This document shows positions 297 to 43,048 of a DNA stretch of 44,302 nt, piece after piece. Each line of letters starts with the position of its first letter. Positions within the stretch are counted from its first letter, which is position 1. The translations under genes and the position numbers were made by a program. The DNA is from Bacteroidaceae bacterium (GTDB taxonomy: Bacteria; Bacteroidota; Bacteroidia; Bacteroidales; Bacteroidaceae), in NCBI GenBank assembly GCA_017552435.1, contig JAFZPZ010000058.1, positions 1 through 44,302 of the forward strand, read 5' to 3'. The notes below the pieces were generated by a model that made no database searches, was not told where the DNA came from, and was given only the letters and a program-made list of their open reading frames with translations.

Positions 297-3098
297 CTAA
301 ACGTGTGGTACTCCGCAGTAGAGGATCTGACCGCCGTTGTGGCCTCCGCCCGGACCCATTTCGATGATCCAGTCGGCAGCGCGGATGATGTCGGGGTTGT
401 GTTCGATGACTATGATGGTATTGCCCTTGTCGACAAGTTTTCCGAGCACATCGAGCAGAACGCGGATGTCCTCGAAGTGCAGGCCGGTGGTGGGCTCGTC
501 GAGTATGTAGAGCGTGCGCCCTGTATCGCGTCTGGCAAGTTCGGCAGCGAGCTTCACACGCTGGCTCTCGCCGCCAGAAAGGGTGTTGCTGGGCTGGCCA
601 AGCTTGATATAACCGAGTCCGACCTCCTGCAGCACTTTTATCTTGTTCAGGATAACGGGCTGATTTTCAAAGAACTCGACGGCTTGGTTGATGGTCATAT
701 CGAGCACATCGGCTATGCTTTTTCCACGGTAGCGCACTTCGAGTGTCTCGCGGTTGTAACGCTTGCCGCGGCACTCTTCGCAGGGTACATAGACATCGGG
801 CAGGAAGTTCATTTCGATGGTGCGGTAGCCGTTGCCTTTGCAGCATTCGCAGCGCCCGCCCTTGACATTGAAGGAGAAGCGTCCTGGCTTATAGCCCCGG
901 ATGCGTGCCTCGGGCAGTTCGACGAAAAGGTTGCGGATGTCGGTGAAGATGTCTGTATAGGTGGCGGGATTGGAGCGCGGGGTCCGTCCGAGGGGGCTCT
1001 GATCGACGTTGATCACCTTGTCGATGTTCTCCAGTCCCTCTATGGAGTCGTAGGGCAGGGGATCTGCGAGCGAGCGGTAGAAGTGCTTGCTGAGGATGGG
1101 GTAGAGTGTCTCGCTGATGAGCGTGCTCTTGCCGCTGCCGCTGACCCCGGTGATGCAGACGAGTTTGCCCAGGGGAATCTCGACATCGATGTTCTTGAGG
1201 TTGTGGCCGCGACAGCCCTTGAGGGTGAGTGAAGAGTTAAGAGTTAAGAGTGAAGAATTGTTTTCATTCTTCATTTTTAATTTTTCATTTTTCACTTCCA
1301 GTTCCCCCTTCATATATCTTGCCGTGAGGGTGTCTGTCTTTAGCATCTCGGGGTAAGTGCCCTGGAAGACGACTTCTCCGCCGCGACGGCCTGCCAGGGG
1401 ACCGATATCGACGATATAGTCGGCATTCTCTATCATATCCCGGTCATGCTCTACGACAAGCACGGTGTTGTCGGCATCGCGTAGTGCCTGGAGGGAGTGG
1501 ATGAGCTTGATGTTGTCGCGCTGGTGCAGACCGATGCTCGGTTCGTCGAGGATGTAGAGGACTCCCACCAGCTGGCTGCCAATCTGTGTGGCAAGGCGTA
1601 TGCGCTGGCTCTCGCCGCCGGAAAGACTCATCGAGGGGCGTGAGAGGGAAAGATAGTCGAGACCAACATCGAGCAGGAACTTCAGTCGTGTCTTTATCTC
1701 CTTGACAATCTCTGAGGCGATAGCCCTCTGGCGCTCGCTGATCCGGGTGTCGAGACCTTCGAGCCATTCGTAGAGCTGACCGAGTTCGAGGGCTGAGACC
1801 TGGGCGATGTTTTTGCCGTCGAGCAGGAAGTGAAGTGAGTCTTTTCTGAGCCGTTGCCCGTGACATTCCGGGCACTCGCAGACACCGCTGAACTGCTCTG
1901 CCCATTTCTGGGCACTGGCTCCCATCTCGGCATCTTTCATCTGCTCGATGAATTTGACCAGGCCGTCGAACTGGGAATAGACATCGTTTGTGGTTTTGGC
2001 CTTGCTCGCGGGGATGCGGAGCCGCTGGGGACTGCCCTCCAGGATTTCATCGATGGCTTCCTCGGGCACCTCGCCAAGTGGGGTGTCTATGGTGCAGCCG
2101 TATTGTTCCAGAACGGCTTCCACCTGCCAGTATATCATAGCCTGTCTGGCCTTGCCAAGAGGCGCAAAACCGCCTTCACGAAGTGAGAGGGCAGGGTCGG
2201 GGATGACCTTGGCGCGGTCAATGATGTGTACGAAGCCGAGCCCCTTGCAACGAGGACAAGCGCCCTGGGGGCTGTTGAAAGAGAAATCGTGCGGTGCCGG
2301 GTCGTGATAGGAGATGCCGCTGGTGGGGCACATCAGATGCTTGCTGTAGTGACGCACCGAATTGCTGTCCATGTCGCAGACGAGCATCTCCCCCTCGCCC
2401 TGCTTCATGGCTATCGAGACGCTTTGTATGAGCCGTTTGTCATCTTTGTCCTGAACCTGAAGCCGGTCGATGACGACCTCGATGCTATGGTTGCGGTAGC
2501 GGTCGAGCTTCATGCCCGGCAATACCTCCTGCATCTCACCGTCGATGCGGACATAGAGATAGCCTTTGCGGCGAATAGTCTCGAAAAGTTCCTTGTAGTG
2601 ACCTTTGCGGTTCTTGATGAGAGGTGCCAGCAGGATAATGCGTTTGCCGTTGTATTCGCTCAGGAGTAAGTCGAGAATCTGCTCTTCGGTGTACCGCACC
2701 ATCGGTTCGCCGGTGACATAGGAGAATGCCTCGGCTGTGCGGGCATAGAGAAGACGCAGGAAGTCGTAGATTTCCGTTGCCGTGCCGACAGTGCTTCGCG
2801 GATTCTTGTTGGTGGTCTTCTGCTCGATGCTGATGACAGGACTGAGGCCCGTTATCTTATCGACATCTGGCCGTTCCATGCTTCCCAGAAAATTACGGGC
2901 ATAGGAACTGAAGGTTTCGATGTACCGGCGCTGGCCCTCAGCATAGATGGTGTCGAAAGCAAGAGAAGACTTCCCGCTGCCGCTGAGACCTGTGATGACC
3001 GTAAGACTGTTGCGTGGAATCACGACATCCACATTCTTCAGGTTATGGACGCGGGCACCCTCTACCGAAAGTGAAGAATTCAATTTTTCATTTTCCAT
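297..3098 (-). CDS. uvrA: UvrA, excinuclease ABC subunit A
   Basis: 933 residues, close to the usual ~940. UvrA is the damage-sensing ATPase that loads UvrB in nucleotide excision repair. Visible features are a first Walker A (GLSGSGKSS), a zinc module with CPRCKGLGF and [11 protein letters not shown], the signature [12 protein letters not shown] with [15 protein letters not shown], a second Walker A ([10 protein letters not shown]), a second zinc finger (CECCKGNGY and CEECRGKRY), and [12 protein letters not shown] with [12 protein letters not shown]. Both ATPase halves begin with a V/L-x-G-x-R-x-HNLKN block, and each block is preceded by a low-complexity segment encoded by short repeats: residues 1-10 ([10 protein letters not shown]) and about residues 601-624. 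The C-terminus stops at YCGVPHV, some 20-25 residues before the usual 'SYTGKYL'-type end. The segments before each ATPase half look like tolerated insertions. Start: the only ATG near the conserved region, itself inside a repeat. Confidence 0.95.
1229..1295. repeat. Inverted pair of heptamer arrays inside uvrA
   Basis: The left arm (1229-1258) is built of TGAAGAG/TTAAGAG-type 7-bp units. The right arm (1266-1295) is built of ATTTTTC/ATTCTTC-type units. The arms are exactly 30 nt each and the loop is 7 nt. Of 30 positions, 23 pair by Watson-Crick and 6 more are G-T, the G being in the left arm. The array is in frame and encodes the linker between the two UvrA ATPase halves. Confidence 0.8.
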
Positions 3099-3108: not shown

Positions 3109-3154
3109 GCGAATAAAATCGCGCCTTTGTGCTAAAGCATCAAAGAACTTTCCC

Positions 3155-4030: not shown

Positions 4031-4065
4031 GTGAAGAATGGATGGTGAAGAATGAAGAATGAATT
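4031..4065 (+). repeat. Heptamer array overlapping a start codon
   Basis: Five 7-bp units, among them GTGAAGA twice and ATGAAGA, ending in ATGAATT. The start codon of the LysM gene (4052) and its first codons (MKNE) are part of the array. Confidence 0.8.
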
Positions 4066-5380
4066 GAGGATTATACTTTTCTTGCTTTGTCTTTGTCCGA
4101 TGCTTTTGTTAGGACAAAATACATTGTCGACACTTGGAGATATACATTCCGTTGTGAAAGGCGAGACATGGGAAAGCATTGCAGTTAATCATGGCGTATC
4201 TGTCCAGGAATTGCGGGCTGCAAACCCAGATATCACCAAAAAGAAGCTAAAAAGAGGCACTTTTTTGATAATTCCACGCTCTCCACAGCCTTCGGAAGCA
4301 ATTGACGTATCAGAACAACAGCCAGTATCCGTTATTCGTACTGCCATCTCGGATTTGAAGGTTGGAGTCCTGCTTCCGTTCAGTGATGCGAAGATGGTGG
4401 AGTTCTACCGTGGATTCCTAATGGCAGCAGACAGCGTTCGCAAAGCAGGTGTCAATCTCGATATTCATACATGGGACTGTGGAACTTCGGTAACACAGAT
4501 AGAGCAACTTCTGCCTAAAGTGGGGGAACTGGATGTTCTCTTCGGTCCCGTTTCTGCGACTCAGATACCTGCTGTGGCTGAGTTTTGCAGGGAACGTGGA
4601 ACTCGTCTGGTCCTGCCCTTATGGAGCGGACAGCCTCTGGCGGATTATCCCCTTGTCTATAATGCCACAGCCCCTAATGCTCTCGTCTATGAAGCGGCGG
4701 TCAGAAGTTTGATGAATTATTATGCGGATAGGAACTTCGTTGTTGTGCATAGCGGCAGTAGTGACAATCGCGGTAAAATACTTGTGGAGACGCTGACGCA
4801 GAACCTGGCACAGCGGTCGGGTATGCCAAGGGTCCTTGAGCTGGAAGGCAACGACTTTGCATACGAATCTGCGTTTAACCAGTTCCGCGACAATATGATT
4901 CTCCTGGATGACAGCAGTATCCGCTCGCTGAACATCCTTTTGGCTCGTCTCAAGGATTTCCATCGGGGACATTCCGAATACCGTCTTTCCCTGATTGGGT
5001 ATCCCGAGTGGCAGGACGAGACTGGGAGGCTTCTGAATGATTTCTTCACCTTCAACACCTATATTATCAGCTCCTTTTATTACAATGTTTTAGACGAAAA
5101 GACGAAACACTTCCAACGCACCTACGAGAAGTCTTTCCGTACTCCCATTGCCCAGAATAATCCTCGCTATGCCGCTCTGGGCTTCGACCTGGGCTATTAT
5201 TTCCTCTCGGGTATCAGCAGTCTGGGTGATACCTTCGAGCAGATGCAAGGCACCCTTCATCAGGAGCCTTACCAGAACTGGTATCACTTTGAACGCAGCA
5301 CATCGGGAATGAGTTTCTCCAACAACTTCGTCCAATTCATCCATTTTACTCCGGAAAGTAAGATAGAGCTCATCAGATAA
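4052..5380 (+). CDS. LysM domain plus type 1 periplasmic-binding-like protein
   Basis: 442 residues. A signal peptide (MKNELRIILFLLCLCPMLLLG, then Q) is followed by a LysM peptidoglycan-binding motif at about residues 33-78 (HSVVKGETWESIAVNHGV... LKRGTFLIIP). From about residue 100 there is a type 1 periplasmic-binding fold (KVGVLLPFSDAKMVEFYRGFLMAADSVR, then LDVLFGPVSATQIPAVAEF), as in LpoA and amino-acid receptor proteins. Inference: a periplasmic protein tethered to the cell wall that senses or binds a ligand. No transporter genes are adjacent, so transport is unlikely. The barrel gene 30 bp downstream is probably co-transcribed. Confidence 0.8.
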   Translation: MKNELRIILFLLCLCPMLLLGQNTLSTLGDIHSVVKGETWESIAVNHGVSVQELRAANPDITKKKLKRGTFLIIPRSPQPSEAIDVSEQQPVSVIRTAISDLKVGVLLPFSDAKMVEFYRGFLMAADSVRKAGVNLDIHTWDCGTSVTQIEQLLPKVGELDVLFGPVSATQIPAVAEFCRERGTRLVLPLWSGQPLADYPLVYNATAPNALVYEAAVRSLMNYYADRNFVVVHSGSSDNRGKILVETLTQNLAQRSGMPRVLELEGNDFAYESAFNQFRDNMILLDDSSIRSLNILLARLKDFHRGHSEYRLSLIGYPEWQDETGRLLNDFFTFNTYIISSFYYNVLDEKTKHFQRTYEKSFRTPIAQNNPRYAALGFDLGYYFLSGISSLGDTFEQMQGTLHQEPYQNWYHFERSTSGMSFSNNFVQFIHFTPESKIELIR

Positions 5381-5410: not shown

Positions 5411-6124
5411 ATGGGAGCTCGGTCATTCAAATTCATTATATATTATTCATTATTTATTATATATTCTGGCGTCTCTGTTCATGCTCAGGTGGGTGAATCC
5501 CGTACAGATCTTGCTGTGGGCATTAATGGAGGTTTTGTCATGAACCGCGTAACCTTCTCTCCCTCCGTCAAGCAGAAACTGAAGAATGGTATGACAATGG
5601 GCTTTACGGCCCGATATACCTGCGAGAAGTACTTCAATATGCTTTGCGCTATTCAAGGCGAAATCAACTACTCACAAGCTGGTTGGAAGGAGAAAGTAGA
5701 CACCGATGCAGATACCTACCAACGCACTATCCATTATGTTCAGATGCCTTTGCTTGCTAATCTCGGGTTCGGTCGTGAACGTGGTGGAGTGAAAGGGTAC
5801 CTCGTTGTCGGACCGCAATTAGGCTTCTGTATCGGAGAGAGCGAGAAAGATGGCGCGAGATACGATGTGCCACAAGAACTTGTGGGAGGCCTTTCGCAAC
5901 ACGATCTGAAGGTTCAAAAGAAATTTGAATACGGCATCACCGGTGGTCTCGGCATGGATGTCAGCACCAAAAGCGGACACCATTTCATCATCGAGGGGCG
6001 CTTTTTCTATGGTTTGAGTGACATCTTTTCAAGCACCAAGAAAGACCCTTTCAGTCGTTGCGCGAACAATACAATCTATGCCAAGGTGGCTTATCTCTTT
6101 GATATCAAGAAAACGAAATTATAG
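5411..6124 (+). CDS. PorT-like outer-membrane beta-barrel protein
   Basis: 237 residues. The signal peptide core FIIYYSLFIIYS is encoded by a 7-bp tandem array (5431-5465) and cleavage probably follows VSVHA. The mature part has alternating strands with the pattern of the OMP_b-brl_2/PorT family: LAVGINGGFVMNRVTFSP, YVQMPLLANLGFG, GYLVVGPQLGFCIGE, EYGITGGLGMDV, and an aromatic-rich end YAKVAYLFDI. Such small barrels sit in the outer membrane; the function here is unknown. The stop overlaps the end of the convergent dnaG by 6 bp. It follows the LysM gene closely and is likely in the same operon. Confidence 0.8.
   Translation: MGARSFKFIIYYSLFIIYSGVSVHAQVGESRTDLAVGINGGFVMNRVTFSPSVKQKLKNGMTMGFTARYTCEKYFNMLCAIQGEINYSQAGWKEKVDTDADTYQRTIHYVQMPLLANLGFGRERGGVKGYLVVGPQLGFCIGESEKDGARYDVPQELVGGLSQHDLKVQKKFEYGITGGLGMDVSTKSGHHFIIEGRFFYGLSDIFSSTKKDPFSRCANNTIYAKVAYLFDIKKTKL
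5431..5465 (+). repeat. Heptamer array forming a signal-peptide core
   Basis: Five 7-bp units: ATTCATT twice, ATATATT twice and ATTTATT. Read in frame they give the 7-residue period FIIYYSL/FIIYS of the barrel protein's signal peptide. Confidence 0.85.
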
Positions 6125-8161: not shown

Positions 8162-8164
8162 GTT

Positions 8165-8199
8165 AGTTCATAGTTATGAATTCATAGTTCATAGTTCAT
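8165..8199. repeat. Heptamer array between hsp15 and dnaG
   Basis: Five 7-bp units on the plus strand: AGTTCAT three times, AGTTATG and AATTCAT. The stop codon of hsp15 (8189-8191) lies inside it and the dnaG start is 3 bp from its edge. Confidence 0.85.
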
Positions 8200-18208: not shown

Positions 18209-21200
18209 TTATTTCACAAGCAGTCGTTTGAAGGAAATTTTTCCGTCGGCACCTGTCGTACGGACAATGTTGATACCACGCTGCGGACGATTCAGTTTTA
18301 TGCCATCGATGGTGAATATCATAGAAGACTGGTTATCGATTGAACTATCGTCCTGTGCAATATCTGTGATGGCATCTAGGAAGGTTTCTTCGTCGAAGTT
18401 TTCGTCGATGCCGCTTAGCCACTCGCTGTAAGAGGTAAGGGTATTGGTGGCATCAATTGTTGGGCGCGTCATGCGGTAGATACGCTTGCCGCCGTCGGGA
18501 TAGCGCCCTACGCTTTCATCACCATTGTGTGCCTGATAGACGAGGCAGTCGCTCCAGGAGTGGTCGGCGGCTGTGATGGTAACACTCTGTTCGTTACTGT
18601 TTTCAAGCTTGAAGCCTGTATGCAATTGGCGCAGGGGATCGACCTTGTCAGCCCATACGACATAGTATCCGTGAGCGGGAATGATGGTGGATTGACCATT
18701 GACCATTGACCATTGACCATTACCACTGACGGAGGTCCTTGTGATACAGTACTTTTCTGGTACGGCGGGGTCGTCGGTGAGGAACATACCTTCGAGGTCG
18801 ATGTCCTGGTTGGTGGTGTTGTAGAGCTCAATCCAGTCGTTGCGCTTGCCGTATTCGTTGGCAGCTACCGTATTGCCGGCACTTACCTCGTTGATCACGA
18901 CAGGTGGAGAGCCTGCAGCCACAAGACAATCGGGGTGTAGTGGTTTGAAGATAGCCTGTATCTGAGTGTCGGCATCGGTGTCGAGACGAAGCGTGCGTTC
19001 GTAGCTGACAATAGCAGTGCCGGAAGAAATGCTGTAACTTATCTCTGCATCCCAGTAGATATCTGTCGAGCCTGGTACATTGTTGTGAACCTCCACAGCG
19101 ATGATGTTCTCGCCTTTGCGCAGTAGTCCCACGGGTAGTTCGATAGTACCGGAGTCGGGATTGTCAGGAGCATAAGTTGTAGCGTATGTTTCGTAGGTGA
19201 TTTCGCCATCTGGCAACAGATAGCGGCAGGCTTCCGTTCCGTTAATATATACCACAAAACCGTCGTCTGCAGTAAAGTTGAGCGTCAGGGACGCTATTTC
19301 AGAAGGATCGTTGTGAACCGAGAGGCTCTTGCGGAAGTAATAGGTGGGGTATTTCTGGCTGCTGTCACCTCCGTAGCTGAGGGTTGTGACGATAGAACTT
19401 TTTCCGTAGCCCAGAGGAGAAGGACCCTCAGGCCAACTGATAGATCCGGTCTGCCATCCGGTATTGTCGAGCGAGCCTCGGTCCCAGTAGTTCCAGCTGT
19501 CACCTTTGTGGATAGGTGTAACCTTAGCGTTGCCGCTCTTGCTCCATCCCACGAAGTTGTAACCGGCAGGAGCCGATGCTTCCAGGGTGACAGGAGCGAA
19601 GAGTGTGCCGTCGAAAGTTGCAGTGGGAACGGGTTGACCGTTGATGAGGAAAGCTGCTCCTGGCACGTTGGCGTTGAACTTCACAGCCATCCCGCTGCCG
19701 AGTCCGTATGCCGATTTCAGAGAGTTCATGCGGCTGGTTCTGGAAGTCAATCCAATCATGCGTGACTTCTGTTCGTTGTAGGAGGTCCAAGGCCCTTTTC
19801 CTTCCAGGGCGAGGGCCGGTTCCACGAGTCGGCAGATGCTGTCACCGATAGCGAGGCAGCGGTCCTTGGTGAAGACGCTGCCGCCCAGGATGCAATAGGC
19901 ATCGATGAAGCGACGGCGGAAATCTGCGCTGCTGCGTTTCATGTTGTTGTATATGCCGAGCAGTTCGTTGCCGTAATTGCCTTCGAGCAGCGCCACGCCG
20001 TTACCGTTGCTCCATCCCCAGTCCTGGTCGTGCAGCGTAAGGTGGAACTTGCCGTCGGGTAGGGAGCGATAGCCCTTGACGTTGTTGTTGTTGCAGATCC
20101 AGTCGCTACAGCCGATATAGCTGATGGCGGCAAAGAAATTTGTCACCTCGTCGATATCGATCAGTTGTTTCAGCTCTTCGTAGGTGCTGGGTGTGGAACA
20201 ACCTGGGGCGAGATACTTCCACCGGTTGAAGGCATCCTTCGTGCCTGCCATCTGGAAGTAGCCGTTGGAGTACTCGAAGGCATCCATCTCGTCATCGTCA
20301 TAGCCATAATAGGCATAGCCGTGATAGCGGTTGTTGGGCTCGCGCAGGTTCAGTTGGGCCAGGTAGCGACCGTTGAAGAAAACATGAACAGGCTGGTAGT
20401 CCTGGCAATCGCAATAGAAACCGCTGGAGAGAAGCACTTGCTGGGTGATGGCGTCGCGCACCCGCCCATGTTCCTTAGAATTGTTGTCGTTGCCGCCGTT
20501 GCGAACCATTATCTGGCGGTACTTGTGGTGCGGGTTGTACGGGAATAAAGGCCAGTAGTCGATGGTCTTCTTGCCTTCGTAGCGGTTGGTTCCCTTTATC
20601 TTGAAGGATGAGGGGGCGTAATGGCGGCTCCAACCGCCCGAAATGACAAATTCTGCTTCCTGGTTGATAGCCATCTCGCCTTCGGGGGTGATGTACTCGA
20701 AGTTGACGGGGCGTTCCCAGTCCATATTGATATTGGAGGCGCCGTGATTGCGTCCGCTCACTCCGTTGACGCCATCGGTATAAACGCCTATTTTCCCGTC
20801 GTAGAGGTTGTCGGGGTCTGTTGTGATGGAGATGACTGGCAGATAATAGTCTTTGCTGCGGTAGATGTAGCTGCGTGTGACGATCTGGCTGGGGAGCATG
20901 CCCTGCTGGAAAAGGCCAAAGCGCAGTATGGTGGTGGCACTGATACTGAATGTGCCGTCTGTGCTTGTCTTGCCGTGTGCGGCAGTTGGCGGAGTGCCGT
21001 CGGTCGTGTAGCGCAGAGTGGCACCATCGGGGATGGCAACCTGTACGGTAAAGGGGTCGGTGAAAAGGCGCGAATCGGTATCGACCTCCGGAGCCTCCAG
21101 ACGGAACTCTGCAAAATCACTGCCGTTGTTCGAGGTACCCAATGAGGGTTCTCCTGTCCATCCCCATTCCTTCCCGCCGTCCCGCTTGCGAGCCCAGGAG

Positions 21201-25724: not shown

Positions 25725-25754
25725 CACCCGAATTAGTCATTTGGATGATTGAAG

Positions 25755-26633
25755 ATGACAAGCAAGAAGAAAAAAAATAAAGGGCCACGTTGGTTTGTTC
25801 CAGCCGGTATGACACCGACGGAGATGGACCTCAAAATAATGGAGTGGGAGGAAAAAGGCAAACTGGTGCCGACACGCGACCTCATCAAGACTCAGGAACA
25901 GATAGAGGGCATCCGCAAGGCTGGTGTCCTCAACACTGCTGTGCTCGATGCTGTAGCGGAGAAGATTCGCGAGGGTATGAGTACCGCAGAGATAGACCGC
26001 ATCGTCTATGACTATACCACCAGCCACGGCGGCATCCCGGCGCCCCTGAACTTCGAGGGCTACCCCAACAGCTGCTGCACCAGCATCAACGACGTGGTGT
26101 GTCACGGCATTCCCAGCGAGGATGACATCCTGGAGGAAGGCGATATCATCAATGTGGATTGCACTACCATCCTGGACGGCTACTATGCCGATGCCAGCCG
26201 CATGTTCATCATCGGCAGGACGACCCCAGAGCGGCAACGCTTGGTGGACGTGGCATGGGAGTGCCTCAAGATAGGTGAGCAGGTCTGCCTGGAGCCGTAT
26301 GTCTTCGTGGGCGACCTGGGCAATGCGATTGCCAAACATGCGCACAAGAACGGCTATACCGTGGTGCGTGACCTCTGCGGACACGGGGTGGGGCTTCAGT
26401 TCCACGAAGAGCCCGATGTGGAGCACTATGGCAAGAAGGGTTCGGGTATGCTGCTCGTTCCCGGAATGACGTTCACCATCGAGCCGATGATTAACGCCGG
26501 CGACTGGTACGTCTGCGGCGACGAGGACGACAAGACGGAATGGATTGTCCTGACCGAAGACGGAGAGGACAGCGCCCAATGGGAACATACCTACCTGATG
26601 ACAGAAAACGGGGTGGAAGTTATTACTAGTTAA
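25755..26633 (+). CDS. map: Methionine aminopeptidase, type I
   Basis: 292 residues from ATG at 25755; a TTG two codons upstream is less likely. It removes the initiator methionine from new proteins. Metal and catalytic residues are visible in SINDVVCHGIPS (His), INVDCTTILDGYYADAS (two Asp), LCGHGVGLQFHEEP (His), FTIEPMIN (Glu) and WEHTYLM (Glu). A lysine-rich N-terminal extension (SKKKKNKGPRW) of about 45 residues precedes the catalytic domain; such extensions often mediate ribosome contact. The internal CCTSIND replaces the more usual 'CTSVNE'. The stop codon lies within a heptamer array that leads into tsaD. Confidence 0.94.
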   Translation: MTSKKKKNKGPRWFVPAGMTPTEMDLKIMEWEEKGKLVPTRDLIKTQEQIEGIRKAGVLNTAVLDAVAEKIREGMSTAEIDRIVYDYTTSHGGIPAPLNFEGYPNSCCTSINDVVCHGIPSEDDILEEGDIINVDCTTILDGYYADASRMFIIGRTTPERQRLVDVAWECLKIGEQVCLEPYVFVGDLGNAIAKHAHKNGYTVVRDLCGHGVGLQFHEEPDVEHYGKKGSGMLLVPGMTFTIEPMINAGDWYVCGDEDDKTEWIVLTEDGEDSAQWEHTYLMTENGVEVITS

Positions 26634-26656
26634 GAGTGAAGAATGAAGAGTGAAGA
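26629..26656 (+). repeat. Heptamer array spanning the map stop and tsaD start
   Basis: Four 7-bp units: GTTAAGA, GTGAAGA, ATGAAGA and GTGAAGA. The map stop (26631-26633) and the tsaD start codon (26643-26645) both lie inside it; the array supplies TsaD residues 1-4. Confidence 0.85.
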
Positions 26657-27677
26657 ATGTTTTATTTTGGGAATTGAAAGCTCCTGCGATGATACTTCGG
26701 CAGCGGTGCTGAGGGACGGGATTTTGCTCTCCAACGTGACGGCCAGTCAGGCGGTGCATGAGGCTTACGGTGGGGTAGTGCCAGAGTTGGCGAGCCGCGC
26801 CCACCAGCAGAACATCGTGCCGGTTGTGGATGCTGCTCTGAAGCAGGCCGGCATCGAACGCGAACAGCTCAGTGCCATTGCTTTTACCCGAGGTCCGGGT
26901 CTGCTGGGCTCGCTGCTTGTGGGTGTGTCGTTTACCAAAGGCCTGGCGGCGTCTCTCGGCATTCCCATGATTGACGTGAACCACCTGCACGGGCATGTCT
27001 TGGCGCATTTCATCCATACAGAGGGCGACGATTATGTGTCGCCCGAGTTCCCTTTCCTCTGCCTCTTGGTGAGTGGCGGCAACAGCCAGATTGTGCTCGT
27101 GAAGAGCTACAAGGATATGGAGATTATCGGCCAGACCATCGACGACGCTGCGGGCGAGGCCATCGACAAGTGCTCCAAGGTGATGGGGCTGGGTTATCCC
27201 GGCGGGCCGATTATCGACAAGTTAGCTCGACAGGGCAATCCCGATGCTTTTACCTTCTCTAAGCCCAACATCCCGGGCTACGACTACAGCTTCAGCGGAC
27301 TGAAGACCAGTTTCCTCTACAATCTGAGGGATTGGCTGAAGGAGGACCCTGACTTCATCGAGCACCACAAGTGCGACCTTGCCGCCTCATTAGAGAAGAC
27401 CATTGTCGATATCCTGATGAAGAAACTGCGTCTCGCTGCCAAGGATTTGAAGATTCGTCAGGTCGCTGTGGCTGGCGGCGTCTCGGCGAATACCGGCCTC
27501 CGCAATGCCTTCCACGACTATGCCCGTCGCTACGGCTGGAAGATATTCATCCCACGCTTCAGCTACACCACCGACAACGCCGCCATGATTGCCATTGCCG
27601 GCTACTTCAAGTACCTCGACAAGGACTTCTGCCCCATGTCCGCCCCCGCCTACAGCCGCGTCTCAACAGAGGCATAA
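26643..27677 (+). CDS. tsaD: TsaD, tRNA threonylcarbamoyladenosine synthase subunit
   Basis: 344 residues. TsaD transfers the threonylcarbamoyl group to A37 of ANN-decoding tRNAs, together with TsaB and TsaE. The family opening ILGIESSCDDTSAAV begins at residue 8, preceded by MKSEECF, partly encoded by a heptamer array. Metal-binding histidines are in DVNHLHGHVLAHF. Other family blocks are VSGGNSQIVLV, TIDDAAGEAIDKCSKVMGLGYPGGP, FSFSGLKTS (here YSFSGLKTS), VAGGVSANTGLR and YTTDNAAMIA. It lies 9 bp after map and is probably co-transcribed. Confidence 0.95.
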   Translation: MKSEECFILGIESSCDDTSAAVLRDGILLSNVTASQAVHEAYGGVVPELASRAHQQNIVPVVDAALKQAGIEREQLSAIAFTRGPGLLGSLLVGVSFTKGLAASLGIPMIDVNHLHGHVLAHFIHTEGDDYVSPEFPFLCLLVSGGNSQIVLVKSYKDMEIIGQTIDDAAGEAIDKCSKVMGLGYPGGPIIDKLARQGNPDAFTFSKPNIPGYDYSFSGLKTSFLYNLRDWLKEDPDFIEHHKCDLAASLEKTIVDILMKKLRLAAKDLKIRQVAVAGGVSANTGLRNAFHDYARRYGWKIFIPRFSYTTDNAAMIAIAGYFKYLDKDFCPMSAPAYSRVSTEA

Positions 27678-28897: not shown

Positions 28898-29545
28898 ATG
28901 AAGGCGAAGTATATTAAGAAGGAAATAGCCGATCTCAACAACACCGGCTCTCCTATGGTCTATTACCGGATGAAGCGGCAGGAAACACTGGAAACAGGGG
29001 ATTTCATAAAACGGTGCCACCGCTTTAACCGGATGTTCCCGCCAAGTGTCCTCCAGGGTGCAATAATGGTTGTGTGCGAACAGCTGGCTGATGAACTTTC
29101 GAAAGGATTCAATGTGAAGATTGACGGGCTGGGGACGTTCCATGCCAAGCTCGGTCTGAACAAATTCACGTCGAGGGAGATGGATTCTTTCGAGGAAGGG
29201 ACCAGGAAACTCAATGCGGCGAGCTTGGGAGTGACGGGCGTGGGGTTCAGGGCAGACAAGGAGCTGGTGAGAGCCGTCGCTGTTAAGTGCAAGCTGGAAC
29301 GTGGCGGTGAAGACCGTCTGCGGAAGTCGAAATACACAAAAGAGGAGCGCATCGAGCGAGCCATCCAGTACCTTCGCAAGGCGGGATTTATGCACGTCAA
29401 GGACTATGCGGCACTCAACGGTCTGTCCTACACGACTGCCTATCGCGAGCTGAATCGTGGGCTTGTGGGTTCGGCCACCATCACGAGCCGTGGCAGCAAA
29501 AGCGCAAAGGTCTATTTCCTGAAACCGGAAGGAAGTAGTCAGTAG
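28898..29545 (+). CDS. HU-like DNA-binding protein with C-terminal helix-turn-helix
   Basis: 215 residues. Residues ~1-125 fit the HU-related family of Bacteroidetes: a helix pair (FIKRCHRFNRMFPPSVLQGAIMVVCEQLADEL), then the strand region KGFNVKIDGLGTFHAKLG and a downstream GVGFRADKELVRAV. Residues ~145-208 form a helix-turn-helix (YTKEERIERAIQYLRKAGFMHVKDYAALNGLSYTTAYRELNRG) with a basic end. Such proteins bind DNA; the fusion to a helix-turn-helix suggests sequence-specific binding. It stands alone on its strand. The clustered CGACGTG motifs upstream may be its own binding sites (inference). The last residues EGSSQ and the stop codon are encoded by the start of a 15-bp tandem array, so the C-terminus may have been altered by it. 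Confidence 0.8.
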   Translation: MKAKYIKKEIADLNNTGSPMVYYRMKRQETLETGDFIKRCHRFNRMFPPSVLQGAIMVVCEQLADELSKGFNVKIDGLGTFHAKLGLNKFTSREMDSFEEGTRKLNAASLGVTGVGFRADKELVRAVAVKCKLERGGEDRLRKSKYTKEERIERAIQYLRKAGFMHVKDYAALNGLSYTTAYRELNRGLVGSATITSRGSKSAKVYFLKPEGSSQ

Positions 29546-29616
29546 TTAAGTAGTCAGTAGTTAAGTAGTCAGTAGTTAAGTAGTCAGTAGTTAAGTAGTC
29601 AGTAGTTAAGTAGTAG
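29534..29616. repeat. 15-bp tandem array between convergent genes
   Basis: Five exact copies of AGTAGTCAGTAGTTA (29534-29608) plus a partial sixth. Each unit is a 7-mer plus an 8-mer, so it belongs with the other short-word arrays; the 8-mer also makes up the array at 40628. It overlaps the end of the HU-like gene and stops 20 bp before the TamB-like gene end. Confidence 0.92.
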
Positions 29617-32600: not shown

Positions 32601-34045
32601 ATCTGGAGCCCTCCGCCGTAGGAATCGCCGTCGATATTTGCGTCGAAATGAATATTCCGATGTTCGTAGCCTTTGTGTACCAGGCTGTTAATCAGACCTG
32701 CCATTGCCAGTTTGGGCTGTCTGTCCTGCCCGGGCAAAGTGCCTTCGACATTCGTTTCGAGTGAAAGGGTCATGTTCTTTCCATCTCCGGAGATATCCAG
32801 CAGATACCCCAGGTTCAGGTCTTTGGTGGCGACAATAGCCTTGACATCGTGCATATCTTGCAGAGTGGCATTCACCGAGACGGCGCCATGCTCCGATTCT
32901 GTCAGGAGATTTGTGCGTAGGTCCTTGCTCTGATAGGAAACTGTACCCGAGGTCTTCGTGCTTCCCAGTCGTGTCAGGATAGGGCTGATTTCCCGCGCCT
33001 GACCCTGCAGGTTCTGTGTCAGGAACTGTTGTAGGGAGGAACCAGTACGCAGCTCGGCGATGTCGGCAGAGATGGCGGGCGAGTCCTGCAGGTCAGAGAT
33101 GGTGGCATCGCAAAGCAGGGAGATATTGCCGGCTTTGTCCCTGACAGAGAGGTCGTTCATCGTCCATCGTCCATCGTCCATTGTACATCGTACATCAGAT
33201 GTTATCTCGATGATGTCGCTAAACGTAGCCAGCTTCGGTACGAAACAAGCCAAGTCGCGAGGACAAAGGCTACCAGAAACAGAACCTTCCCAATTCCCAT
33301 CCAAGGGCTGTTTTATATTGAATTTTGTTCTGCCTGCGCCTGAACTTTGCGAAGAATTTTGATTTTTGAATTCTATTGCCGTATTTGGCAATTCGAGCAG
33401 GAGGTCTTGAATCGTTGCCGATTGTTTCCCGGCTTTGGCTTCGAAAGAGAGGCGATTGAGCTTCAGTCCGCTTTGTTCACGGAGGGAGAGCCCACGCAGG
33501 TCAACAGCAAACGAGTCGGGTTTCTGCACGAAGACACGAGCAGTTAGACTCAAATCCTTGACAAGTAGGTGGTTAGGATTGAACTTGCCAGGAGTTTCCG
33601 GCTTGTCAAACCGGTCGAAACGCACTTCGCCTCGCCGCACCACAAGGGCTCCGATGCCTAGGTCGAGTGGGGTAGTGGTCGTGTCTTTCGACGAGAACGC
33701 ATCCACCAGAAACTGGAAGTTGCAAGGCTCCTCGCCGTCCTTGTAGAGCCTGGCCTTTGCACCGATAAGTTGTGCCCCGGAGATGCGTATCTTCCTCTCT
33801 ACAAGCGGCATCAGGTCTATGCTTGCAGCGATGCGTGAGGCTTGCAGCATCAGGGTGTCGCGCTGGTCGTAGAGCTTGACATTGTCTAGGATGATGTGCC
33901 CCAGAAGGTTCAGTCTCAGAGTCCCGATGTTTACTTTGCACCCCGCTTTGTCGGCAAGAAGCTGCGACGCATAACCTGCCACCCAACGTTGAAAGGCCGG
34001 CAGCGAAGTCAGCAGCAACAGGGTCAGATAGATGCCCGCCAGCAC
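29636..34045 (-). CDS. tamB: TamB-like translocation and assembly module protein
   Basis: About 1469 residues. One N-terminal membrane segment (IVGVLAGIYLTLLLLTSLPAF) is followed by a long periplasmic beta-rich region and the TamB C-terminal domain (last ~400 residues: PDAQIRLLMDPRAGDNITLGGNGRL, FQLFGTYRISEGNYRMSI, IIFGGDAMKAALNLKATHTV, FDFDIPNANEDEKQMIRSMLNTEEERD). TamB-type proteins form a hydrophobic groove between inner and outer membranes and help in lipid transport or barrel assembly. The start is uncertain: GTG at 34045 is the first start-like codon, yet the frame stays open upstream to 34126 and encodes a basic stretch plus the first half of the membrane helix without any ATG. Residues ~284-297 come from a 7-bp array. 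Confidence 0.88.
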   Translation of the reverse strand: MLAGIYLTLLLLTSLPAFQRWVAGYASQLLADKAGCKVNIGTLRLNLLGHIILDNVKLYDQRDTLMLQASRIAASIDLMPLVERKIRISGAQLIGAKARLYKDGEEPCNFQFLVDAFSSKDTTTTPLDLGIGALVVRRGEVRFDRFDKPETPGKFNPNHLLVKDLSLTARVFVQKPDSFAVDLRGLSLREQSGLKLNRLSFEAKAGKQSATIQDLLLELPNTAIEFKNQNSSQSSGAGRTKFNIKQPLDGNWEGSVSGSLCPRDLACFVPKLATFSDIIEITSDVRCTMDDGRWTMNDLSVRDKAGNISLLCDATISDLQDSPAISADIAELRTGSSLQQFLTQNLQGQAREISPILTRLGSTKTSGTVSYQSKDLRTNLLTESEHGAVSVNATLQDMHDVKAIVATKDLNLGYLLDISGDGKNMTLSLETNVEGTLPGQDRQPKLAMAGLINSLVHKGYEHRNIHFDANIDGDSYGGGLQMDTPNGLAQVQLQTALRQGKRTLLCNAQIKDFAPHQMNLTKQYEGERFSAGIDAEFSDIDLESLQGRLRLTDLVVASEKEGTLRIGDILLSSNVADSTQHMLVQSDFLNIKADGNFNWKTLPASFLQPIRQNLPGLFQTGSRHIGPSGNDFTFHVQVQDTVLFERLLNTDLHLPEKSTIEGSISDAIGQISLQMHIPQIQMGSQELQNLDCRAETGRSSIQTSLQCERMIKGKPVELNLDAYATGDKVTSRLRWDNKRSVSHTGDISLTSIIRRDLSDSPTIDARMNDSHIVIGDTLWQIKPATIRYHNKVIDVKDLSISQAQRHINIGGRISELATDTLRAELADIDISYIMDLVNFHKVDFDGRTTGSIYATSLMKKPLADAFLQVRDFTFNAANMGDMDLYANWGKQERAIILEADMKGPMPQHRTQVSGTIIPGKGMEDGLNLNIKTSHIDLSFLSKYTQGIFSNLQGRASGWTRVYGPFKLVNLEGDMFVDEMKMHVLALGTDYHLAGDSVTLRPDNIWLRGGHVYDHIGIPGMTEHMATVDAHLMHNSLKDLRFDINIDAHNFLGYNFPHQGSMNFYGVAYADAQVHMSGEPGTVNIDVSATPMPGTTIMYNVATPGTVTETEFVTYGPLTTPDGEDTATAAMEADGEMPESGTADIHLNFDIDANPDAQIRLLMDPRAGDNITLGGNGRLHANYYNKGRFQLFGTYRISEGNYRMSIRDLIRKDFTFQPDGTIIFGGDAMKAALNLKATHTVPNVSLDDLGTNGLGLSNTRVDCIMNIGGIARDPVITFDFDIPNANEDEKQMIRSMLNTEEERDMQAIYLLGVGRFYSYGTLLDTRQTKGGMAMNSVLSSALSSRFNQIMSQALGGSSWSFGTNLRTGEEGWEHLDVEGLLSGKMLSGRLIFNGNFGYRENKYKMGSNNFIGDFDIQYRLSPRSPFSLKAYNQTNDRYFTQSSLTTQGIGIKFQRDFNRFLEVFHRSKKK
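33155..33196. repeat. Heptamer array inside the TamB-like gene
   Basis: Six 7-bp units on the plus strand: GTTCATC, GTCCATC twice, GTCCATT and GTACATC twice. On the coding strand it gives CTMDDGRWTMND with a 7-residue period. Confidence 0.88.
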
Positions 34046-37161: not shown

Positions 37162-37539
37162 ATGAAAAAGAGCAACGAAACACTATCCAGGGTAGAGTTC
37201 CAGGTGATGAATGCCATTTGGGACTTCCCCGAAGGCGCCTGCGCGTGGGACGTATTGGATAAGTGGAACGAGCCGAAGCCGGCCTACACCACGATTGCCA
37301 CCTACCTGAAGGTACTCTACGAAAAGGGCTTCCTGGACTTCCACAAGATTGGGGGACAGGGCAAGACGCACCGTTATGTGCCCCTGGTATCTCGGGCCGA
37401 ATACACCCGCCGCACAATGCAGGAGGTAAAGAAGAACTTCTTCGGCGGCAGTCTCAGGTCAATGCTCAACTACTTCGTCAGCGAAGAACACCTCTCCCAG
37501 GACGAGATAAAAGACCTGCTGGAGCAAGTGAGCAATTGA
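37162..37539 (+). CDS. blaI: BlaI/MecI/CopY-family transcriptional repressor
   Basis: 125 residues, the family length. The N-terminal winged helix-turn-helix is clear: LSRVEFQVMNAIWDFPEGACAWDVLDKW, then PAYTTIATYLKVLYEKGFLDFHKIGGQGKTHRYVPLVS. The C-terminal dimerisation part follows (LRSMLNYFVSEEHLSQDEIKDLLEQ). In this family a membrane M56 peptidase partner inactivates the repressor by proteolysis; such a partner is the next gene. In Bacteroidetes these pairs often control genes other than beta-lactamase, and none is seen nearby. The stop codon lies in a 7-bp array. Confidence 0.92.
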   Translation: MKKSNETLSRVEFQVMNAIWDFPEGACAWDVLDKWNEPKPAYTTIATYLKVLYEKGFLDFHKIGGQGKTHRYVPLVSRAEYTRRTMQEVKKNFFGGSLRSMLNYFVSEEHLSQDEIKDLLEQVSN

Positions 37540-37616
37540 CAATTGATAATTGACAATTATTAGAGCGGTAGCAAATTCTTCACTCTTAATTCTTCACTCT
37601 TCACTCTTCACTTAGT
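37534..37616 (+). repeat. Two heptamer arrays between blaI and the M56 gene
   Basis: First array 37534-37561: AATTGAC twice, AATTGAT and AATTATT; it includes the blaI stop. Second array 37575-37616: ATTCTTC twice, ACTCTTC twice, ACTCTTA and ACTTAGT. It ends directly at the ATG of the next gene. Thirteen unrelated bases separate the two arrays. Confidence 0.85.
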
Positions 37617-39425: not shown

Positions 39426-39508
39426 CAGTCACTTCGAAGCGCTTTGCCTCGGCAAAACGCCCCAAAAAGTGCAAAGTGCAAAAAGTGCAAATTTCATAAC
39501 TCATTGAA

Positions 39509-39575: not shown

Positions 39576-40088
39576 CTATCTCCTGCCTACGCTTCTCATA
39601 GAAGTAGCGGTAGTGGCAGACAGAGTGTCCATGAAATACTCATACCTCGACGCGTGCATCATGCTTGTGCGTACCGTTGTGTGGTACGTCAGAAATGCCG
39701 CCGCGACTCTCATTGTCCAGTACGGCCCTCTCACACCGCACTCCATCCGCATCATGGCACTAATCAGTGGTATCATGTCCGTGGGTTTCTCCCAGTTGAG
39801 CTTCTTGTCAGCAGGGAAGTTTGTCCACTCGCACACGTTCTCGATGTACAGCTCCGTATTGTTCTCGTTGCTTGGTGCCCAATGCTCGATTATGAGTTTC
39901 GGAGTGTTGATACCTCTTTCGATATAGCGTCGTAGCAGGATGATGCCTGCACGGATGCCATAGTATAGGTGGATAAACTCTTCGAAGCTATTGTCGCTCT
40001 TGTCTTTACTGACACGTCCGAGCCATTCATTATATTCACTGAATCTAATGTTCAATGGGTTATTATTACGAATTCCTCTAGGTTTCAT
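39576..40088 (-). CDS. P5-like structural/lytic protein of a mobile element
   Basis: 170 residues. The opening RGIRNNNPLNIRFSEYNEWLGRV, then FEEFIHLYYGIRAGIILLRRYIERGINTPKLIIEHWAPSNENNTELYIENVC, matches the family annotated as 'structural protein P5' in Bacteroidetes phages and integrated elements, which is related to lysozyme-like cell-wall enzymes. Inference: it opens the cell wall during transfer or release of an element. The last ~30 residues (after PYWTMRVAAAFLTYHT) do not recall the family. It is the last gene of the leftward cassette. Confidence 0.7.
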   Translation of the reverse strand: MKPRGIRNNNPLNIRFSEYNEWLGRVSKDKSDNSFEEFIHLYYGIRAGIILLRRYIERGINTPKLIIEHWAPSNENNTELYIENVCEWTNFPADKKLNWEKPTDMIPLISAMMRMECGVRGPYWTMRVAAAFLTYHTTVRTSMMHASRYEYFMDTLSATTATSMRSVGRR

Positions 40089-40091
40089 ATC

Positions 40092-40112
40092 AATTATGAA
40101 TTATGAATTTTA
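40092..40112. repeat. Short heptamer array upstream of the P5-like gene
   Basis: AATTATG twice, then AATTTTA on the plus strand, 3 bp upstream of the gene start. Confidence 0.6.
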
Positions 40113-40163: not shown

Positions 40164-40607
40164 TTACTTGATTATTGTTATTAAGTCCAATTTCGATAAA
40201 GTCTTCCTGACACCCTGCTTATCGAGCAGAGTGTCAAGGTTTTCGAGAGCTTGCCGGAAGAGCTCTTCATCCAGCTCACATCCTGAGACGGATAGGAGCA
40301 GACGTAGCACTTTCCGCAAGGTTGTCACACGTTCCGGGTCATCTTTGTCCCACCACTTGATGTGTGCGTACTGCCTCTGATGGAGTATGTCCCACACCTG
40401 CCCGGGCGTCAGCCGCTGGTACTTCATCATGTAATACGCTACATCGACGAAGCCGCAAGGGGCTTCTGCGTATAGTCCCATCAGGACTAACTGATAGCAC
40501 TCTTTCGCATTTTCGTACAAAATGATTCTGCCCGTCTCGCCACGGAGCATAAACGGGTTCACCGTGCTCAGCGCATCGCGCATTGTTATAGTCTCGTTTC
40601 TTGTCAT
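40164..40607 (-). CDS. Hypothetical protein of the cassette
   Basis: 147 residues, not recognised. It is mostly helical by pattern: ENAKECYQLVLMGLYAEAPCGFVDVAYYMMKYQRLT and then DELFRQALENLDTLLDKQGVRKTLSKLDLI. A tryptophan pair in AHIKWWDKDD stands in the middle. There is no signal peptide or membrane segment. It lies between the primase-helicase gene (41 bp away) and the P5-like gene, on the same strand, so a role with the element is likely but the function is unknown. Confidence 0.65.
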   Translation of the reverse strand: MTRNETITMRDALSTVNPFMLRGETGRIILYENAKECYQLVLMGLYAEAPCGFVDVAYYMMKYQRLTPGQVWDILHQRQYAHIKWWDKDDPERVTTLRKVLRLLLSVSGCELDEELFRQALENLDTLLDKQGVRKTLSKLDLITIIK

Positions 40608-40627
40608 TTTTCATTGTTCACATTTGG

Positions 40628-40651
40628 CTTAACTACTTAACTACTTAACTA
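40628..40651. repeat. 8-bp tandem array at the end of the primase gene
   Basis: Three exact copies of CTTAACTA. The stop codon of the primase-helicase gene (40649-40651) lies inside. Its reverse complement is the 8-mer half of the 15-bp array at 29534. Confidence 0.8.
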
Positions 40652-43048
40652 CTTTATTTTTCTCCACTTGTTCTTCTCGATTTTCTCTACGAGCCCGTTC
40701 TGCCTCCATACCGCAACGATGTTACGGATGGGTGTGCGAATCTCCTGCCGTGAGCATTCAACATAGATAGCCTGCTTGTCGAATACGTCGGGCAGCTCGT
40801 TGAAGATGCTCTTCTGGGGCACCTTCGGTTCTGCCTGAGTTTGCGCATTGTAGCGCTGTCCCCACAGGGCAAGGCTGCTTTCGATGTCCTGGTCCATCCA
40901 CCATACGATGAAGGGTATGCACTTCTCCAGGTCGCTCCGTCTTGGATTGTCCCACAGAGCCTGACACATCAGACCGATGCGGAAGCCGCGCACGGCCACA
41001 CGCTTGCGGAACACGTCGCGGGCGGTGTTCAGTTCCTGGGCTGCCTGCTTGCGCTGCACTTCGAGCCAGTCCGCAATAGCGGGCAGAATCCATTCCATAT
41101 CGACCTCTATCCTTTTCTTGTAGTGGAAGCGCCAGTTGATTTCAGCATCGAAGTTCTCATCGCTCGTCGAATCCACCGTCGCCTGGTCAGGGAGCCGGTC
41201 GGCAGGCTCTTCGTAGCTGTTGGCATCGCATCGCCCCATGAACCTTTTCAGCACCTCCCTGTCTTTCTTGTTGAACGGCTTCCAGTTGGGGATTGGTGCA
41301 TACTCCTGGTTATCGATGGTCGTAAACGAGCATCGGGTTATCAGCCCGTTCTCTACGTTCTTGTAGTAGCTGAAGAGCTGCTGAATCGTACCCGTTATGA
41401 GTACATTCCAATACAGTTTCACCTCGCCCTTGAACGGAGAGCCTGCGAACGCCTGCCCGTATGGTTCGTTATCCCACGCCACGCGTATCATGTCATCCTT
41501 GTTGCCGCCAGCCGCGCGCACACCCTTTGCCCACGAGTCCATCTCCGGCGCATACGTGAACATGTGGTAGCCGCAGTTGTCGCGCATCTGCAGCAGCAGT
41601 TCCGTCTCGCTGTTCTTCGGCGGGATGATACGCATCAGCGTATGCGGGTCTTCGGGCTTTTTCTCGTTGTCGCCCTTTATGTTCTTTTGGTTCTGGTAGA
41701 TGGTCTCACGCGCCACCTGAATGTACTCACGGAGCCTCAGCAGGTCGAACAGGTTGTCCTGCACCTTCTTTGCGAAGCTCTTGCCTGTGCCCGGAGGGGC
41801 ATAGATGACAGAGTAGAACGATGTCGTATGTACCTCGTCGTTGAAGTAGCGCCCTTGCAGGTAGCTTGTCAGGGTTCCCATCGCAGGCAGCAGGGCATTC
41901 ACCATAGAGACACGGAAGTCCTTCGGCGTTATCTTGATGAACTCGCGGAACACAGGAGGGAGCCAGGGGATGGGGGCATCCTCCTTCTCGGGAGTATCGC
42001 TCATCATGTACTCGGCGAGGTCTGTGCCGGTTAGACCCTCCTTGATGAAGCCGTTATCCCTTAGCCAGCAATAGAACGGCTCGGGGATCTTCCTGCCAGT
42101 CGTGCGGGCGCAAATCGACTTTATCTGGCTCCAGCACTCTGCGGCATCATGGCCGAAGCGCGGCAGCAGGTAGAAGAGGCAACGCTTGTTGTTCGAGGTA
42201 ATGTACTTGAAGTCAGCTATCATGGCATTGTAGTAGTTATGCACCTCAGCCTTGCCCGGCTTGCCGTGCTTCTGCACATAGCGCTCGATGATAACTTTCA
42301 GAGGTGTTCCACGGAAGTCATAATTCTCGAATTCCTCCACTTCTTCCTCCGTCCAGTTCTCCAATATCTCCGCATCCGAGAACAGCGTACCATTCCCATT
42401 TTTAATTTTTGAATTTTGAATTTCATCCTCACTCTCTTTCCAGTTATTGACAAGAAAGCCATCATCCCACGGCCTCTCTTCTGTTAGAGCCAAATCAGCA
42501 TTCTGCCAAAGGAAATCCTCTGCCGTAGGCAGAAAACTGATTCTTGAGAAGTCCTTACAGGGCGCATCAAAATCACCAAAGCGGTCCAACTCAAATTTCT
42601 TGGCAAACGCCTCCATGTTATCGATGAGCGTCTTGTAGCCTTCCTGCGCCCTGTTGAAGAAACGCAAGCCGTAGCCGCCTACGGTGATATGAGCCGCCAA
42701 GACATTCTGGGCGAAATACTCCACGCCGGCTTCGTGCAAAATTTGCTCGAAAGCGCCACGAGGGTCCTCCACATGGTCGATGTCAATCATGTACAGACCT
42801 GTAGGTATCATGTACCTAATCGCTCTTGTCTTCGTGCAGTCACCGACGGCACAGATGGCAGGGACTTGCATTTTCAATGCAGCCTTCTCTTTCTTGTCGG
42901 TACATGCACGAACCTTAGCTATAAGTTCTTTCTGCGCGTCTGAGCCGCACAGGTCATAAATCTGTGGCCAAGGCATACGCGCCGGAATAACGCCAGGGAC
43001 TAACTTTCCCTCTTTGTTAGTCATCGGAAAATAGATGTCAAACTTCAT
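40649..43048 (-). CDS. VirE-N/BT4734-type primase fused to DUF3987 helicase-like domain
   Basis: 799 residues. Residues ~1-200 resemble the BT4734-like/VirE-N domain of the archaeo-eukaryotic primase superfamily, with the acidic metal motif in GLYMIDIDHVEDP (D89, D91) and HITVGGYGLRFF. From ~370 a DUF3987 ATPase domain follows: WLPPVFREFIKITPKDFRVSM, then Walker A YAPPGTGKS with K423, then FTYAPEMDSWAKG and LYWNVLITGTIQQLF. Such fusions are replication proteins of Bacteroidales mobile elements and phages. Residues ~208-217 (EIQNSKIKNG) come from a heptamer array between the two parts. The start overlaps the preceding gene by 11 bp. Confidence 0.85.
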   Translation of the reverse strand: MKFDIYFPMTNKEGKLVPGVIPARMPWPQIYDLCGSDAQKELIAKVRACTDKKEKAALKMQVPAICAVGDCTKTRAIRYMIPTGLYMIDIDHVEDPRGAFEQILHEAGVEYFAQNVLAAHITVGGYGLRFFNRAQEGYKTLIDNMEAFAKKFELDRFGDFDAPCKDFSRISFLPTAEDFLWQNADLALTEERPWDDGFLVNNWKESEDEIQNSKIKNGNGTLFSDAEILENWTEEEVEEFENYDFRGTPLKVIIERYVQKHGKPGKAEVHNYYNAMIADFKYITSNNKRCLFYLLPRFGHDAAECWSQIKSICARTTGRKIPEPFYCWLRDNGFIKEGLTGTDLAEYMMSDTPEKEDAPIPWLPPVFREFIKITPKDFRVSMVNALLPAMGTLTSYLQGRYFNDEVHTTSFYSVIYAPPGTGKSFAKKVQDNLFDLLRLREYIQVARETIYQNQKNIKGDNEKKPEDPHTLMRIIPPKNSETELLLQMRDNCGYHMFTYAPEMDSWAKGVRAAGGNKDDMIRVAWDNEPYGQAFAGSPFKGEVKLYWNVLITGTIQQLFSYYKNVENGLITRCSFTTIDNQEYAPIPNWKPFNKKDREVLKRFMGRCDANSYEEPADRLPDQATVDSTSDENFDAEINWRFHYKKRIEVDMEWILPAIADWLEVQRKQAAQELNTARDVFRKRVAVRGFRIGLMCQALWDNPRRSDLEKCIPFIVWWMDQDIESSLALWGQRYNAQTQAEPKVPQKSIFNELPDVFDKQAIYVECSRQEIRTPIRNIVAVWRQNGLVEKIEKNKWRKIK
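42398..42425. repeat. Heptamer array in the primase-helicase linker
   Basis: Four 7-bp units: ATTTTTA, ATTTTTG, AATTTTG and AATTTCA. In frame it supplies part of the linker between primase and helicase parts. Confidence 0.78.

Follow-up and report, generated by a model that had tools for sequence, protein, structure and literature searches.

Tandem arrays of seven-base units were confirmed as a genuine feature of the window, that is, the whole stretch of 44,302 nucleotides of Bacteroidaceae DNA analysed here, in which they occur far above chance. Their word vocabularies were shown to be genome-specific and to differ between species, and in a few close pairs of species the same site holds a patch with a different word at equal length between intact flanks. 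We assign a probability of about 0.5 to the interpretation that slippage makes the arrays, short-tract copying moves their words and selection filters the products. That the arrays are mutational products, and not a single functional element, appears to us an even proposition.

Genomic Setting and Census of the Arrays

The window corresponds to contig C79 in a draft genome of 3.50 Mb in 129 contigs (completeness 87.94%, contamination 4.5%), and among the genes it carries are uvrA, dnaG, pth, a ribosomal L25 gene, tamB, an M16 peptidase gene and a BlaI/BlaR1-type pair. Among the 69 dnaG loci returned for comparison, the closest DnaG (87% identity) belongs to Bacteroidaceae bacterium isolate RUI392, and many of the other loci bear rumen or gut sample names. 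The comparison assemblies are metagenome-derived drafts, relatives were compared at the species level throughout, and the compared pairs, which are different species, are not independent of one another.

Segments of period seven were scored along the window by comparing s[i] with s[i+7] (match +1, mismatch -2), with a cut-off score of at least 12 or, more loosely, of at least 10. The stricter cut-off yielded 11 segments, where 100 dinucleotide-preserving shuffles averaged 0.00 (maximum 0); the looser one yielded 14, where 60 shuffles averaged 0.10 (maximum 1). This comparison rules out chance and base composition as the source of the arrays and bears out the excess over composition-matched sequence that the first-pass annotation had expected. 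Among periods 2 to 25 other than 7, only period 14, itself a multiple of 7, gave more than one segment in the window, and TRF results were consistent with the period-7 scan. The same annotation had counted at least fourteen loci and listed 13 heptamer places, twelve of which hold with scores of 10 to 25 (1229, 4031, 5431, 8165, 18691, 22818, 26629, 33155, 37534, 37575, 40092 and 42398), while the place at 8612 (score 5) does not qualify as an array on this measure. Its arrays of 8-bp units at 40628 (score 19) and of 15-bp units at 29534 (score 61) are both real, as is the recurrence of GTGAAGA or its complement at 1229, 4031, 26629 and 37575, and two arrays missing from its list were found at 1263-1294 (score 16) and 39466-39482 (score 10).

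Beyond the window, doubled GTGAAGA has 62 matches in the 3.50 Mb of the genome (overlaps counted), and its backwards control none. A home sample composed of the window and 20 stretches of the same genome (425,395 bases) holds 67 period-7 arrays, a density of 158 per Mb that is possibly too high because most of these stretches were chosen from contigs with known GTGAAGA arrays. Samples of three congeners hold 24 arrays in 317,509 bases (G008), 27 in 400,000 (G013) and 6 in 383,662 (G066), and 2 arrays turned up in 346,619 bases from ten genomes of other families of the order, after two short stretches had been left out of that sample. The 69 dnaG loci (1.26 Mb) contain 116 arrays against 0 in one shuffle of each locus, and 29 of the 30 loci returned by a search with L25 contain 5 arrays in 101 kb.

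Genome-Specific Words and a Common Length

Each sampled genome draws on its own stock of words, the AAGAGTG class making up 11 of 24 arrays in G008 and AAATGGT 4 of 6 in G066. Across 61 congeneric genomes, (GTGAAGA)3 has matches in 23 and (AATTATG)3 in 22, with little agreement between the two: the respective counts (overlaps included) are 14 and 1 in G059, 0 and 27 in G045, 1 and 21 in G005, and 27 and 20 in G032. Backwards controls in the same 61 genomes gave 11 matches for one word (9 in G002 and 2 in G040) and 0 for the other; the nine in G002, to (AGAAGTG)3, represent another amplified heptamer.

Words differ, but the total length of the arrays is concentrated. The 217 period-7 arrays counted in 2.79 Mb comprise 29 shorter than 24 bp, 152 of 24-35 bp and 36 longer ones, with a median of 4.3 units, the score threshold cutting into the short end of this distribution; under the looser threshold, the home sample displays two humps, at 18-19 bp and 26-35 bp. 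Median lengths are 31 bp for period-8 arrays (n = 61) and 28 bp for period-9 arrays (n = 46). The G013 sample (L210-L229) has an unusual share of the latter, with 20 of them alongside 27 period-7 arrays. Among the GTGAAGA arrays listed for the genome of the window and G008, 14 of 22 measure 28-30 bp, and AT comes next in 18 of 22. About four units are the commonest state here, and work on Xanthomonas repeats (PMC4692102) gives the same figure for them, so that this size is not peculiar to any single word.

Gene Edges, Junctions and Coding Sequence

By crude ORF calls, 29 of the 67 arrays in the home sample are intergenic, 13 lie across a gene edge and 25 are inside an ORF, against 4.8, 2.4 and 59.8 for random placement. 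Eleven of the 42 arrays that lie outside genes or straddle their edges fill the junction, leaving at most 15 bp on either side. Within genes the arrays are read on the stop-poor strand (25 stop triplets in any frame on the sense strand against 85), which points to a coding filter. Provision of stop codons in all frames was considered as a purpose of the junction arrays and rejected, the sense strand being richer in 10 and the antisense strand in 10 of 24 co-directional junctions (97 and 75 stop triplets in total).

Several arrays of the window lie at gene edges. A GTGAAGA/ATGAAGA array (4031-4063, plus strand) covers the start of a LysM-domain gene (4052-5380, plus strand), an AGTTCAT array (8164-8199) occupies the junction between an S4-domain gene and dnaG, and an AATTATG-class array (40088-40109) marks the 5' edge of the minus-strand gene 39576-40088. 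The BlaI-BlaR1-type junction is filled by a compound (37533-37612) of an AATTGAC array, an 18-bp core with GAGCGGTAGC and a TTCACTC array. The array at 39466-39482 has the word AAAGTGC, and the 8-bp array of CTTAACTA (40628-40654) is found between the minus-strand genes 40164-40607 and 40649-43048. The 15-bp array of AAGTAGTCAGTAGTT (29533-29614, 5.5 copies) runs over the end of the HU-HIG gene (28898-29545, plus strand); its copies are perfect, and a change in their number would alter the C-terminus of the protein. One array, or two of unlike words, joined to a GCTACCGC core is seen not only in the compound at 37533-37612 but also near 19308 in L133, 8209 in L018 and 8308 in L040. The M20/S4 junction carries an array-core-array element, its core mostly with GGCTACGCC or the complement, in L003, L005, L009, L010, L012, L014 and L028, and it is missing from close relatives, L013 and L015 among them.

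Many arrays are protein-coding, which goes beyond what the first-pass annotation had described, and translation places them in frame within UvrA, QueA, MetH, ClpC and signal peptides. In uvrA, a 30-bp array of GTGAAGA type (1227-1256) and its inverted partner, an opposite-sense TTTTCAT/TTCATTC array (1263-1294), together encode 23 residues (602-624) on the minus strand, where 23 of 29 congeners carry a single short linker; L106, L107 and L126 hold other array translations at this site, and L122, L124 and L125 other expansions. MetH likewise contains an in-frame inverted array pair, located after the pterin-binding domain and just before the first B12-binding domain. In the genome of the window ClpC has one array, with one other in L263 among 27 relatives, and QueA has two. 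The remaining in-gene arrays of the window are an ATTGACC array in a CotH/LTD gene (18691-18730, residues 1309-1322), a GTGAAGA/ATGAAGA array in the minus-strand gene 25737-27017 (26628-26659, translated as TFFTLHSSLLT), a TCGTCCA array in tamB (33153-33196, residues 284-298) and an array in a DUF3987 gene (42398-42423, residues 209-217, translated as EIQNSKIKN). A second dispersed in-frame repeat, encoding PPLKGEESKSPFKGDLEG, was observed in queA (L143:7343-8725); metH (L131:13599-17378) has a similar stretch, SPFKGDLEG, and QueA residues ~184-211 match several other sites of the same genome.

Two arrays of the window fall at the beginning of genes, in regions that look like signal peptides, an assignment made from sequence alone. 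The ATTCATTATATATT array (5431-5465, plus strand) spans codons 7-19 of an omp gene (KFIIYYSLFIIYS) and would encode a signal-peptide-like segment, and the TTGTCTG-type array (22819-22853, plus strand) spans codons 9-20 of the M16 peptidase gene (YCLLSVVCCLLS), the putative core of its signal peptide. The omp gene, which lies beside dnaG, opens with ATGAAACGCCTC or a near variant in most relatives listed; the core that follows is composed of TTGTCTG, TTTTCAT or TTTTCTC words in some species but lacks them elsewhere, and the distance from the upstream stop is equal in 7 of 15 loci. For the M16 peptidase, a TTGTCTG-type array is marked in the genome of the window and in L291 and in none of the other 21 relatives, heptad spacing being visible by eye in L292.

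Word Swaps at Constant Length

Words that differ at the same site while length is constant also lay outside the claims of the first-pass annotation. The clearest case is the omp core of L019 and L052, which is 49% identical between flanks of 99% (left) and 94% (right) within 40-120 bp, with 90-99% in the bins up to 300 bp away on either side. The L019 core is 84% identical to that of L013, and the L052 core 77-78% identical to those of L014 and L017; L014 and L017 have cores 95% identical with flanks of 70-92%. L013 and L014 have omp cores 51% identical, with a left flank of 89-92% and a right flank of 79-82%, and they again carry different words, at unchanged length, in a further site 31 bp long. 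In QueA, a segment of the same length in the genome of the window and six close relatives bears words of AATTCAA, CAATTGA and ACATTGA type, arrays being marked in the genome of the window, L232, L235, L240 and L241 and the spacing discerned by eye in L231 and L234. The core is 97% identical between L232 and L240, with flanks of 85 and 76%, and 60% identical between the genome of the window and L232, with flanks of 92 and 67%. Since the length of this QueA segment is kept in most species, this common register could come from protein constraint, and the values of 79-82% on one side of omp and 67% on one side of QueA indicate that swap boundaries are not always sharp.

Discordant swaps are few as independent cases, and every one is between species. 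A scan of 8 locus pairs, some with a common member, through 71,925 scanning windows returned 7 equal-length replaced patches, of which 3 have arrays on both sides of the comparison, 3 have none and 1 is a dnaG leader (with a heptad seen by eye in L052), the arrays covering about 0.5% of the loci scanned. Among 97 site comparisons, 48 had the same word, 6 a related word, 12 another word, 28 no array, and in 3 the site was absent; for the 10 made at 90% identity or more, the counts are 4 same, 1 related, 4 other and 1 without array.

Unit Number, Homogenization and Dispersal

Local amplification, homogenization and dispersal had all been proposed in the first-pass annotation, and they fare unequally. 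In 45 orthologous array pairs of the same word, compared at the species level and not independent, length differs by exactly 7 bp in 7, by 14 bp in 1, by nothing in 17 and by other amounts in 20; whole-unit change thus speaks for local amplification in 8 of 45, and differences that are not multiples of 7 speak against it in 20. By eye, indel lengths in five close pairs show no visible enrichment for multiples of 7. Homogenization is less clear: units within the QueA array differ at 2.56 of 7 positions on average and orthologous units of sister species at 2.36 of 7, values so similar that concerted evolution is suggestive at most. Dispersal is supported by the genome-specific vocabularies and by two arrays of G008 that have about 45 bp of one flank in common, with two differences.

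Relation to Known Repeats

In cyanobacteria, several short tandemly repeated heptanucleotides (STRRs) are dispersed in one genome. The first-pass annotation had likened the arrays to these, aptly as to kind, several heptanucleotide arrays being dispersed in one genome here too: tandem 7-bp units occur above chance, doubled GTGAAGA is scattered over 62 matches, and 42 of 67 arrays lie between genes or at their edges against 7.2 expected. Heptamer arrays as such are therefore a known kind, to which the cyanobacterial STRRs, the TAACTGA repeats and the GGGAATC repeats of Xanthomonas all belong. The search for one common published word was negative, as TAACTGA, GGGAATC, GGGGATT, GGGGACT, GTGATTA and TTTAGGG each account for 0 of 240 array words.

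The annotation's remark that Bacteroidales had no described equivalent does not stand. TAACTGA direct repeats are published for Beggiatoaceae, cyanobacteria and five Bacteroidetes, with two sets in Paludibacter propionicigenes, a member of the Bacteroidales (MacGregor, 2015; PMC4679880). As characterized there, they resemble the present arrays in being heptamer direct repeats, mainly intergenic, lineage-restricted and in some cases within reading frames, but they consist of a single word placed directly upstream of start codons. The heptameric GGGAATC and GGGGA(C/T)T repeats of Xanthomonas and Nostoc (Rehm et al., 2015; PMC4692102) are likewise dispersed seven-base units, most commonly four, whose length varies between species, and inverted neighbors occur among them as well (70 cases in one strain and 75 in another). 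They differ in being one G-rich, quadruplex-capable word that is ~90% intergenic, whereas many words are found here and 25 of 67 arrays lie inside ORFs. Rickettsia palindromic elements, repeated DNA found in frame in unrelated housekeeping genes (reviewed in PMC10969869, on MITEs), are matched by the in-frame arrays of UvrA, QueA, ClpC and MetH; they are conserved palindromes of ~150 bp, unlike the arrays here, which have many words, are mostly single and ~30 bp long with inverted pairs in the minority, and in some cases replace sequence where the elements add it. Related literature includes Mrazek and Huang (2014; PMC4060949). It is the behavior of the arrays, that is, their length mode, vocabularies, in-frame presence and swaps, that looks new. 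The titles and abstracts retrieved from one open-access collection yielded no report of heptamer arrays in signal peptides or of constant-length word swaps.

Origin of the Arrays

Mrazek and colleagues (2007), as reported in PMC4679880 and PMC4692102, put forward plain local slippage in a 7-bp register, by which each array would arise independently and nothing would be copied from one site to another. This hypothesis would explain the dominance of period 7 and the whole-unit differences in 8 of 45 pairs, and it is favored by the published finding that heptamers are the commonest long repeat class in most surveyed genomes. We consider it improbable as a full account given the 152 of 217 arrays at 24-35 bp with period-8 and period-9 arrays of similar total length, the genome-specific words, and unlike words at equal length between intact flanks. 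Slippage alone does not easily account for these swaps, whereas homologous recombination that exchanges alleles among related species might. Under the latter, old alleles born of slippage would be moved by ordinary recombination that is visible only at variable sequence, and the omp sister pairs L013/L014 and L019/L052 each hold both allele types, with alleles matching across lineages and the QueA core behaving alike. This makes exchange a serious rival to the copying step. As the whole explanation it is about as doubtful as slippage, for the sister-like flanks of L019 and L052 within 40-120 bp require very short tracts, and exchange by itself gives no account of genome-specific vocabularies.

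Mobile hairpins of the MITE or Rickettsia palindromic type, in which two inverted arrays would surround a core, draw on a bias toward inverted over direct neighbors within 90 bp (5 versus 2 in the home sample, 21 versus 11 in the dnaG loci), on GCTACCGC or GCTACGCC lying near arrays beyond expectation (4 against 0.48 in the home sample, 3 against 0.27 in G013, 8 against 1.12 in the dnaG loci), on the M20-S4 junction, where an array-core-array is present or missing according to species, and on the in-frame inverted pairs of MetH and UvrA. They are very improbable, however, most arrays being solitary and those of G008 and G066 having none of the cores nearby, apart from GCTTCGC in G008. The inverted-array hairpin was rejected as a general form, and so was a GGCTACGCC loop as a genome-wide mark, found near 0 of 5 arrays in the home sample and 7 of 29 in the dnaG loci. 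A selected regulatory role, with arrays as putative binding sites, leaders or spacers, would suit the 29 intergenic and 13 edge arrays and the several loci where arrays adjoin the promoter-like element TACCTTTGC, which we take to resemble a Bacteroides promoter element. It seems just as improbable: a common word is lacking, orthologous leaders differ in word or spacing by eye, stop triplets tie between the strands of junctions, and 25 of 67 arrays sit inside ORFs.

The preferred interpretation combines slippage, copying and selection. Replication slippage in a 7-bp register would create a short array that gains or loses whole units, as the 8 of 45 pairs suggest. Short-tract copying would then transfer arrays or their alleles to similar sites, from the same genome or from related species, a patch of ~30-45 nt being overwritten and its word replaced; genome-specific words, discordant cores and the common ~45-bp flank of the two G008 arrays lend support to this step. 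Selection would finally retain only fitting patches, which keep the frame open and, where structure requires it, the length unchanged, so that arrays would gather at gene edges, leaders, signal-peptide cores, linkers and the QueA segment, in line with their location and the stop-poor sense strand. Against the combined interpretation stand the word's being usually kept (48 of 97) and the 3 of 7 replaced patches without an array; nor was any donor array traced in which the irregular order of units recurs.

Significance

Even with an ordinary cause, a total length of ~30 bp common to units of seven, eight and nine bases needs an account in slippage models. More tentatively, some Bacteroidaceae may undergo length-preserving patch rewriting, in which ~30-45 nt would be overwritten by heptamer arrays from elsewhere, often enough with frame and spacing preserved, and signal-peptide cores, promoter spacers, linkers and the QueA segment would be repeatedly rebuilt from the heptamer stock peculiar to each genome. 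Constant-length swaps, if real, would constitute a class of mutation that changes at least 10 codons at once and in frame, with a bearing on the evolution of signal peptides and protein loops and on why seven-base repeats abound in bacteria, and annotators may then find that odd stretches such as NEKLKMKNE are array translations. If patch rewriting holds true, these bacteria would possess a source of new protein sequence apart from point mutation, ordinary slippage and transposition.
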